This document shows positions 18,001-36,773 of a stretch of 64,000 nt of DNA, in pieces (the first letter of the stretch is position 1; every line of letters begins with the position of its first letter). Made by a program: the position numbers and the translations under genes. Source of the DNA: Ornithinicoccus hortensis (lineage in GTDB: Bacteria > Actinomycetota > Actinomycetes > Actinomycetales > Dermatophilaceae); contig NZ_VFOP01000001.1 of the NCBI RefSeq assembly GCF_006716185.1, positions 1,178,001 through 1,242,000 on the forward strand, in the 5' to 3' direction. The notes under the pieces were generated by a model that worked only from the letters and a program-made list of their open reading frames with translations, was not told the DNA's origin and did no database searches.

Positions 18001-18035
18001 CGAAGGGCCCGGACCACTACGGTCCGGGCCCTTCG
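18001..18035. terminator. Intrinsic terminator after tuf
   Basis: A perfect 15-bp stem (18001-18015 with 18021-18035) with an ACTAC loop. A smaller GCCCCC/GGGGGC hairpin precedes it at 17963-17976. The right arm of the large hairpin is the beginning of the tandem repeat at 18021. Confidence 0.85.
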
Positions 18036-18289
18036 CCGTCCCCTGAGGGTCGCCGTCGCCCTGCAGGATTATCGGGTTACCCGAGAATCCTGTGCTTCGT
18101 AGGAGAAGCTTCCCGGTCGATAGCGCCAGGTTCCGGGGTGAAGCTCCTGCCGGAGGGCGTAGTGGGGTCCGGGCCGTGGCCGTCGCCTGAGGGTCGCCGT
18201 CGCACTGCAGGATTATCGGGTTACCCGAGAATCCTGTGCTTCGTAGGAGAAGCTTCCCGGTCGAAAGCGCCAGGTTCCGGGGTGAAGCT
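18021..18289. repeat. Two tandem copies of a ~145-bp structured repeat
   Basis: Copy 1 (18021-18145) and copy 2 (18166-18289) run in the same direction. Their last 104 nt (18042-18145 and 18186-18289) differ at only two or three positions. Each copy contains an imperfect palindrome (AGGATTATCGGGT then ACCCGAGAATCCT, one mismatch per arm) and a second possible hairpin between AGCTTCCCGG and CCGGGGTGAAGCT. No convincing gene is present, although translating the minus strand gives a repeated peptide. The gap 17958-18454 is otherwise empty apart from the tuf terminators. Confidence 0.9.
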
Positions 18290-18454
18290 GCGTCCTGAGA
18301 CCGTCGGGGAGGTCCGGGCACGACAGGGGGGACCGGCGTGGACCCAGCGCTGCCGCGCGCCCTTCGTATGCCGACAGCTGGCTCCAGCGGATCCGCGGCG
18401 GTGATCTCGGGTCGGGACAGCAGCGGTGCGGGCGGCCAGCCGACCCGTGACCGC

Positions 18455-20336: not shown

Positions 20337-21329
20337 ATGACGACGATCACCATCAACACCCCGACCGGCGGGAGCGCCGGCACCGTGGAGCTGCCCGCCG
20401 AGCTGTTCGACGTGCAGACCAACGTGCCGCTGATCCACCAGGTCGTCGTGGCCCAGCTGGCGGCCGCCCGTCAGGGCACGCACGCCACCAAGACCCGCGG
20501 CGAGGTCCGCGGCGGTGGGCGCAAGCCGTACCGCCAGAAGGGCACCGGCCGCGCCCGCCAGGGTTCGGTCCGCGCGCCGCAGTTCGCCGGCGGTGGCACC
20601 GTCCACGGCCCGCAGCCGCGCGACTACGCCCAGCGCACGCCCAAGAAGATGAAGGCCGCCGCCCTGCGCGGTGCCCTGTCCGACCGGGCCCGCAACGGCC
20701 GGATCCACGTGCTGTCCTCCGTGGTCGAGGGCGACGCCCCGTCCACCAAGACCGCCTGGACCGCGCTGTCCGCGCTCACCGAGCGGCCGAACCTGCTGGT
20801 CGTGGTCGACCGTGCGGACGAGGTCTCGCTGAAGAGCCTGCGGAACCTGAGCGACGTGCACGTGCTGTTCGTCGACCAGCTCAACACCTACGACGTGCTC
20901 TGCGCCGACGACGTGGTCTTCACCCAGTCCGCGCTGAGCGCCTTCATCGAGGGCCGCGCCAAGGCGCCGGCCGCCGCCGAGGCGCCCGCCGCCGAGGTGC
21001 AGGTCGAGACCGCCGAGGTCGAGGCCGCCCCCGAGGCGCAGCAGGAGGCCCCGCAGGTCGAGGCGACCGACGGTGGCTTCGGTGCGGACTCCGCGCCGGC
21101 GACCGAGGACGGTTCGGCCCCCGAGGGCTTCACCGTCAAGGGCAACAAGGACTCGATGAAGTACCACGTCGAGGGGTCCCGCTGGTACGACGCGACCGAG
21201 GCCGAGGTGTGGTTCCGCACCGCCGAGGCTGCCGCGGCCGCCGGCTTCGAGCCCGCGGGTGGCGCTGCCGCCCAGGGCGCGGACACCGGTGCCGAGCTGG
21301 GCACCGCCACCGAGGAGGACGCCAAGTGA
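20337..21329 (+). CDS. rplD: 50S ribosomal protein L4 with extra C-terminal domain
   Basis: L4 sits on the 50S surface and sends a loop into the peptide exit tunnel; in E. coli it also represses the S10 operon. The core (about 1-210) is normal, with the tunnel loop [20 protein letters not shown] and the ending [14 protein letters not shown]. At 330 aa it is about 110-120 residues longer than usual. An Ala/Glu-rich linker (about 211-258) leads to a compact domain at about 259-307 ([33 protein letters not shown]) and an acidic tail. L17 in this window has nearly the same extension. The domain resembles the small motif called 'sunset domain' in some databases, found at the C-terminus of nucleases and other secreted proteins (from memory). 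Confidence 0.95.
21111..21257 (+). other. Segment encoding the extra C-terminal domain of L4
   Basis: This segment encodes the 49-residue appended domain (L4 residues 259-307). It is 46/49 identical to the segment at 36564-36710 in rplQ, with a 62-nt run (21114-21175) identical in DNA. The flanking linker and tail are also shared. Confidence 0.9.
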
Positions 21330-35960: not shown

Positions 35961-36773
35961 ATGCCTACCCCGAAGAAGGGCCCGCGCCTCGGTGGCGGTC
36001 CGGCGCACGAGCGCCTGATCCTGTCCAACCTCGCCACCGCCCTGTTCGAGCACGACCAGATCACCACCACGGCGGCCAAGGCCAAGCGGCTGCGCCCGCT
36101 GGCCGAGCGCCTGGTGACCTTCGCCAAGCGCGGCGACCTGCACAACCGCCGCAAGGTGCTGGCCATCGTCCGCGACAAGGGCGTCGTCCACCGGCTCTTC
36201 ACCGAGATCGCGCCGGACATGGCCGAGCGGCAGGGTGGTTACACCCGGATCACCAAGATCGCGCCGCGCAAGGGCGACAACGCCCCGATGGCCGTGATCG
36301 AGCTGGTCCGCGAGCCGGTCGCCAAGAAGGCCGTCGTCACGCAGGCCGAGGGCGCCACCAAGCGCGCCGCCAAGGACCAGGCCGCCGCGGAGGCGGAGGT
36401 CGACACGACCACCACCGACGTCGCGCCGCTGGCCGGCGAGGGTGAACTGGCCGAGGTCAACGAGACCGCGACCGAGGACACCACCGAGGCCGCGAACACC
36501 GCGAAGACCGACGACGCCGCCGACGGTGGCTTCGGCCCGGACTCCGCCCCCGTGACCGAGGATGGCTCGGCCCCCGAGGGCTTCACCGTCAAGGGCAACA
36601 AGGACTCGATGAAGTACCACGTCGAGGGTTCGCAGTGGTACGACGCCACGGTCGCCGAGGTGTGGTTCCGCACCGCCGAGGCCGCCGAGGCCGCCGGCTT
36701 CGAGCCCGCGGGCGGCGCTGCCGCCCAGGGTGCCGACACCGGTGCCGAGCTGGGCAAGGGCGAGGACGCCTGA
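35961..36773 (+). CDS. rplQ: 50S ribosomal protein L17 with extra C-terminal domain
   Basis: L17 lies at the exit-tunnel rim. The core (about 1-118) is normal: [20 protein letters not shown], the [20 protein letters not shown] helix and the IELVREP end. At 270 aa the protein is much longer than E. coli L17 (127 aa) and longer than the 160-200 aa seen in many actinobacteria. An Ala/Glu/Thr-rich linker (about 119-201) leads to a compact domain at about 202-250 and a Gly/Ala-rich tail. This domain differs from the L4 extension at three of 49 positions. It resembles the small 'sunset' motif of nucleases (from memory). A strong terminator follows. Confidence 0.95.
36564..36710 (+). other. Segment encoding the extra C-terminal domain of L17
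   Basis: This segment encodes L17 residues 202-250 and matches 21111-21257 in rplD. The identical 62-nt run is 36567-36628. Hallmarks are the KGN at the start, the KYHVEG turn, [13 protein letters not shown] and AGFEPA. Confidence 0.9.

Follow-up and report, generated by a model that had tools for sequence, protein, structure and literature searches.

A shared C-terminal sunset domain on ribosomal proteins L4 and L17 of Ornithinicoccus hortensis and its apparently interchangeable hosts

Here, we present an analysis of rplD and rplQ of Ornithinicoccus hortensis, which encode the ribosomal proteins L4 and L17 and lie in a window (the whole stretch of DNA that was analyzed) of 64,000 nucleotides. 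Each protein continues beyond its core into a linker and a C-terminal module (Table 1). An earlier note on this DNA had claimed that the two proteins carry the same module and that it is part of neither core; both claims were reproduced. The modules are identical at 46 of 49 residues, or at 73 of 78 if the flanks are included, and the genes share an exactly identical tract of 62 nt, which breaks off immediately at both ends. This tract lies within an ungapped repeat of 245 nt with 91% identity (90.6%, E 1e-96), which far exceeds chance. In Pfam, the match to the L4 core extends to residue 203 of 330 and that to the L17 core to residue 116 of 270; the domain thus lies outside both ribosomal cores. 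An Rfam scan of the window matched nothing.

Table 1. Features of the sunset-domain variants of L4 and L17 in the window
Feature	Position	Strand	Evidence
rplD, ribosomal protein L4, sunset variant, 330 aa	20337..21329	+	NF051449 485.4 bits, cut-off 385
L4 linker, core (Pfam match ends at residue 203) to cassette	20946..21058	+	
L4 cassette, 245 nt, 91%, common to L17 and also S16	21059..21303	+	DNA repeat comparison
L4 sunset domain, residues 267-308	21135..21260	+	NF051437 72.3 bits, cut-off 27
62-nt tract in L4, identical to 36567-36628	21114..21175	+	
rplQ, ribosomal protein L17, sunset variant, 270 aa	35961..36773	+	NF051448 352.6 bits, cut-off 280
L17 linker, core (Pfam match ends at residue 116) to cassette	36309..36511	+	Residues 121-190 pLDDT 44-57
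L17 cassette, common to L4 and S16	36512..36756	+	DNA repeat comparison
L17 sunset domain, residues 210-251	36588..36713	+	NF051437 77.2 bits, cut-off 27; AlphaFold2 pLDDT 87.6 (51-residue stretch)
62-nt tract in L17, identical to 21114-21175	36567..36628	+	

The genome of the window (3.94 Mb in one contig) holds four copies of the domain, based on a genome-wide search. In addition to L4 and L17, these are a third ribosomal copy on S16 (247 aa; genome positions 1989798-1990541, L006:5799-6542), and a fourth on a single-TM protein of 677 aa (L007:4349-6382), which has a hydrophobic helix at its N-terminus and a long acidic region; both lie outside the window. L4, L17, and S16 have 236 to 261 nt in common at 88-91%, whereas the likeness of the membrane-protein copy to them is just 67%, across about 150 nt. 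An assembly duplication, which the earlier note had considered, is unlikely, because four copies are present in a one-contig genome and many other genomes also have fusions to L4 and L17.

The name "sunset domain," which the earlier note had suggested, proved right: the L4 and L17 modules both pass the cut-off of the NCBIfam model NF051437. Its guess that ribosomal variants had already been named was also borne out, and the two whole proteins pass the cut-offs of the L4 and L17 variant models. Beyond NF051449 (L4) and NF051448 (L17), NCBIfam has the variants NF051450 (L20), NF051451 (S2), and NF051433 (ArfC); in contrast, NCBIfam scans of the fusions to S16, L22, NusA, and NuoE described below returned no variant model for those proteins. 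No paper on the sunset domain was found in the library searched, a result that covers that library and not papers outside it. Thus, the kind is already in NCBIfam and undescribed in the literature searched; what is new here is the hosts S16, L22, NusA, and NuoE, the interchangeability of hosts, the homogenization of copies, and the links to Ada and to a Cutibacterium acnes ribosome structure.

The domain is predicted to fold on its own behind a disordered linker. AlphaFold2 modeled the 51-residue domain with a mean pLDDT of 87.6 and a pTM of 0.67; in a model of full-length L17 (pTM 0.46), residues 11-120 had a pLDDT of 88-98, linker residues 121-190 of 44-57, and residues 191-250 of 89-94. The last stretch is longer than the 42 positions of NF051437, and the cassette starts seven residues before it. 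Because residues 191-250 are predicted well, the folded unit may take in a motif upstream of the domain, a loose pattern of which matches 146 of the 183 rows collected in the survey below. In a Foldseek search of the PDB, the Ada N-terminal domain provided the first two of six matches (1wpk and 1u8b; TM 0.54-0.56, with E values of 1.1 and 1.4 that are not significant). Two relatives with four cysteines match the Ada metal-binding family PF02805, and profile comparison joined four-cysteine, two-cysteine, and sunset groups (small and hand-picked) at 97-99%, with 97% for the sunset domain and PF02805. However, the sunset domain is below the Pfam gathering cut-off, with no Pfam match of the domain stretch up to E 10, and in an alignment the window genome's three ribosomal copies have no cysteine at the four columns of the Ada cysteines, which are zinc ligands. 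Altogether, these comparisons point to a relative of the Ada N-terminal domain that lacks the zinc cysteines.

The forms of the domain also appear to differ in compartment. Two-cysteine forms (13 class-set genomes) mostly have a signal-peptide-like or lipoprotein-like start, and in most cysteine-less nonribosomal forms (24 class-set genomes) a single hydrophobic helix precedes Arg or Lys, both as read by eye; with this arrangement, the cysteine-less domain would face the cytoplasm. Thus, the two-cysteine relatives look exported and the cysteine-less form looks cytoplasmic. In another 24 class-set genomes, the domain is on putative LGFP-repeat wall proteins, and some membrane forms lie in what we take to be an arfABC-like gene neighborhood. 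Small single-TM proteins in three genomes (G475, G653, and G592; L057, L061, and L065) carry two tandem sunset domains. The first fold match among viral proteins was gp605 of Bacillus phage G (59 residues; TM 0.76, E 1.4e-3, 47% identity), and four of the 50 viral matches listed are named for Ada or its repair function. A link to phages was not sustained: none of 48 pattern hits in viral contigs was confirmed as a relative, phage records queried with the ribosomal form gave no relative, and those queried with the two-cysteine form gave only gp605, weakly (E 0.3). gp605 (JN638751, 444223-444360) is called "membrane associated" in one record.

NF051437 matches were counted in overlapping sets of genomes, some of which may be of the same species as the named loci described below. 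They occur in 29 of 296 genomes of the phylum (E ≤ 1e-3), 71 of 394 of the class (E ≤ 1e-10), 52 of 198 of the order (E ≤ 1e-14), 170 of 245 of one further order (E ≤ 1e-15), 8 of 198 of another class (E ≤ 1e-14), and 3 of 66 of a third class (E ≤ 1e-14). Not all matches are ribosomal; at the thresholds used, 33 of the 394 class genomes have a ribosomal copy, as do 37 of the 198 in the order and 4 of the 198 in the other class. L4 and L17 fusions, singly or together, are present in many other genomes. A scan of named genomes gave at least 593 stretches, of which at least 566 were confirmed; among the best 80 of these, the hosts were L17 (48), L4 (25), S16 (4), S2 (2), and a fragment (1), and the carriers included Ornithinimicrobium, Knoellia, Janibacter, Microbacterium, Arthrobacter, Kocuria, Nocardioides, and Kribbella. 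In Tsukamurella, rplQ has a partial domain match (NZ_LR134464.1, 210515-210613) on a 224-kb record filed as a plasmid, which is either a plasmid-borne ribosomal gene or a misfiled piece of chromosome.

We collected 183 rows from 92 genomes of the surveyed sets and 73 named loci, which may overlap and of which the named loci are the best of a longer list; a class match in G607 was left out. Among the matches listed for the further order, we kept 30 loci, 27 of which were new, and fetched 40 regions. With host labels assigned by phmmer against eight references, by eye for the remainder, and by NCBIfam for NusA and NuoE, the hosts were L17 (92), L4 (67), S16 (8), S2 (7), L22 (4), L20 (3), NusA (1), and NuoE (1). 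Ribosomal protein genes rank with the most conserved of all, yet this single domain moves among at least six of the proteins, in both subunits. NusA carries it in 2 of 31 NusA genes read, the second case being in the same family (G1284); for this follow-up, 30 loci were read out of 56 genomes with a match, and some tails were cut or masked. NuoE carries it in five of nine genomes of one genus, and a NuoE tail in this genus (G1296, L451) has an apparent truncated remnant of the domain. Genomes with several copies include the combinations L4, L17, S16, and NuoE (G957), L4, L22, and NusA (G113), and L4, L22, and S2 (G791). In four genomes (G1096, G1129, G1015, and G1135; L376, L395, L402, and L409), the domain has a further host, a family of helical proteins that look amphipathic and end in a copy of the KGNxRSMKYH type.

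The host protein appears to be interchangeable. In 29 genomes examined that lack the L4 copy, the domain was absent from every L4 end, and L4 ended 8-34 residues past the core in 26 and 58-80 residues past it in 3. In all 27 genomes examined that lack the L17 copy, L17 kept a tail of 38-84 residues, which was acidic and had no domain; therefore, the L17 tail does not need the domain. Judging from the tree, L4 has been swapped for L17 as the host inside a clade of nine genomes (support 100/99), in which the domain is on L4 in seven, on both in one, and on L17 only in one nested genome. In the family of the window, host labels are unclustered on the tree, with 8 changes compared with a shuffled mean of 8.0.

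Often, the domain tree follows the genome rather than the host. In a DNA tree of 40 rows, grouping is organism-wise in places, e.g., L4 with L17 of G575 (99/93); ten host changes are needed, the minimum possible being three, and AU tests rejected monophyly both of the 20 L17 rows (P = 7e-54) and of the 13 L4 rows (P = 9e-5). The protein tree of all 183 rows, with 37 host changes and 97 of its 169 inner branches open, was built on too few columns and carries no weight as proof. In an 81-row set, copies are homogenized in four genomes: the 44-residue domain is alike at 0.87-0.92 of nucleotides within G000 and at most 0.85 with the same host elsewhere, with corresponding values of 0.94 and at most 0.85 for G944 and 0.89 and at most 0.84 for G645; in G575, the L4 and L17 domains are alike at 0.99 and its L17 at most 0.79 elsewhere, while its L4, compared without gaps to the L4 copies elsewhere, was out of register (0.39), so that this value is uninformative. 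This concerted pattern is lacking for most pairs of six other genomes. In G931, G953, G557, and G113, orthologs, where present, are closer than copies within the genome, and the same holds for G957 except its S16 copy (0.71 within, 0.70 outside) and for G791 except its S2 copy (0.74-0.77 within, 0.71 outside). Thus, older vertical types and repeated overwriting coexist.

Copies in the four genomes with the concerted pattern have tracts of 195-301 nt in common, which fit conversion and duplication plus loss alike; gene conversion, rather than repeated duplication plus loss, is a tentative reading. The proposal in the earlier note of recent duplication or gene conversion agrees with these data, in which L17 tails forming one clade were rejected. 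Selection on the domain is mostly purifying, judging from 14 ortholog pairs: dN/dS was below 0.27 in 11 of them, about 0.5 in another, and about 1 in a further one, and the remaining pair showed no changes. In an alignment of 12 sequences, unrelated hosts have the same invariant residues. By appearance, six copies are degenerate or altered, namely five on L4 within one family and the one on L17 of G408.

The only PDB sequence matched by the domain is L4 of C. acnes (residues 243-290, E 2.3e-24; 8crx and five more entries), the extension of which in the 70S ribosome thus contains the same domain as the window L4. The alignment of C. acnes L17 (8crx_m, 187 aa) with the window L17 covers only residues 1-172 of the latter and stops before the domain. 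In the part of the 2023 report that deals with this uL4, the extension is exposed to solvent, exceeds its Escherichia coli counterpart by 100 residues, and lacks density, and the authors describe it as likely disordered and not as a domain (PMC10085706). Thus, the domain has no fixed place in this structure. Because the module is also carried by S2 and S16 of the 30S subunit, by L20, and by NusA and NuoE, a role tied to the exit tunnel, which the earlier note had suggested for L4 and L17, is not supported, and a role specific to the tunnel is rejected.

Because the domain is predicted to be folded, is mostly conserved, flexibly tethered, and independent of position on the ribosome, and is also found on NusA, NuoE, and membrane proteins, we suggest, tentatively and as the most probable of the readings ranked here, that it serves as a docking module on a flexible tether and recruits a common partner to any large complex of which it is part. 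In this reading, a small cytoplasmic domain that folds independently, with an Ada-N-like fold and without the metal-binding cysteines, would hang from C-termini by long, mostly acidic, flexible linkers; on ribosomes, it would occupy no fixed binding place and would fetch the common partner. The identity of the carrier would matter little, and the tag could therefore move between genes by duplication and gene conversion, the same exchange keeping copies alike in some genomes and so retaining their fit to the same partner. In some lineages, it would send the partner to RNA polymerase (by NusA), complex I (by NuoE), or the inner membrane face (by single-TM proteins). We infer both the docking function and the common partner, and the partner is a best guess, none having been found. 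Hosts in both subunits and beyond, host swapping, organism-wise grouping, the dN/dS values, and the flexible tether speak for this reading; the patchiness of the trait, the degenerate copies, the ortholog pairs with a dN/dS of about 1 and about 0.5, and the unhomogenized copies in several genomes speak against it. The missing density in C. acnes also fits a simply disordered tail, as the authors say (PMC10085706).

Among the alternatives, the one that we rank next, as unlikely, is that the domain binds itself, copies pairing between ribosomes, or between a ribosome and a membrane sunset protein, and thereby causing clustering (for storage or hibernation) or membrane tethering. The frequent likeness of copies within a genome fits such pairing, as does a cysteine-less membrane-anchored copy in five class-set ribosomal carriers, including the window's genome; however, 28 of the 33 have no such copy (E ≤ 1e-10), and pairing in most genomes would therefore be between ribosomes, for which the copies on NusA and NuoE are ill-suited. 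The same 28 genomes make the membrane sunset protein unlikely as a general partner of a docking module. Patchy presence, some degenerate copies, the unclustered host labels in the window's family, and the acidic L17 tails that persist in genomes without the domain are what is expected of a neutral or selfish passenger, a cassette spreading by homologous exchange between acidic C-terminal tails and merely tolerated; this comes after self-pairing in our ranking and is improbable given the low dN/dS in most ortholog pairs and the residues that are invariant across unrelated hosts.

Still lower in the ranking, we doubt that the folded domain serves as a cap or mark on long disordered tails and thereby controls the stability or turnover of the carrier complexes. 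It is at or near the C-terminus behind a linker in the rows seen, and its hosts are subunits of large complexes; however, 10-35 residues follow it in many rows, so that it is not a strict cap, and acidic L17 tails exist without it. Lowest, and very improbable, is a role in cotranscriptional ribosome assembly, in which early-binding ribosomal proteins would be linked to the rRNA transcription complex. L4, L20, and L22 are early 50S assembly proteins, S16 is an early 30S protein, and NusA is part of rRNA antitermination, and all are hosts; by contrast, S2, which is also a host, binds late in assembly, NuoE and the membrane proteins fit poorly, and the pattern was noticed after the fact.

Returning to docking of a common partner, a wider version of it is possible but doubtful: the domain could be a cell-wide actinobacterial address tag, one flexible domain used interchangeably on the ribosome, NusA-bound RNA polymerase, complex I, and the inner membrane face to bring the same partner to each, with gene exchange keeping the tags compatible. 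A domain whose copies on distant genes stay similar in several genomes offers a natural test of whole-ribosome versus single-protein traits. It also points to a possible factor, as yet undescribed, that associates with the ribosome in many actinobacteria, the skin bacterium C. acnes among them; since the ribosome of this bacterium has already been solved, the question is directly testable.

Elsewhere in the window, a tandem pair of 139-nt repeats with 90% identity (18027-18165 and 18171-18309) lies ahead of the S10 operon, and a perfect 15-nt hairpin (18001-18035) is found just before the pair. On the minus strand, the folding of the first repeat beats 200 of 200 shuffles (z -4.7), compared with z values of -2.5 and -1.4 on the plus strand.
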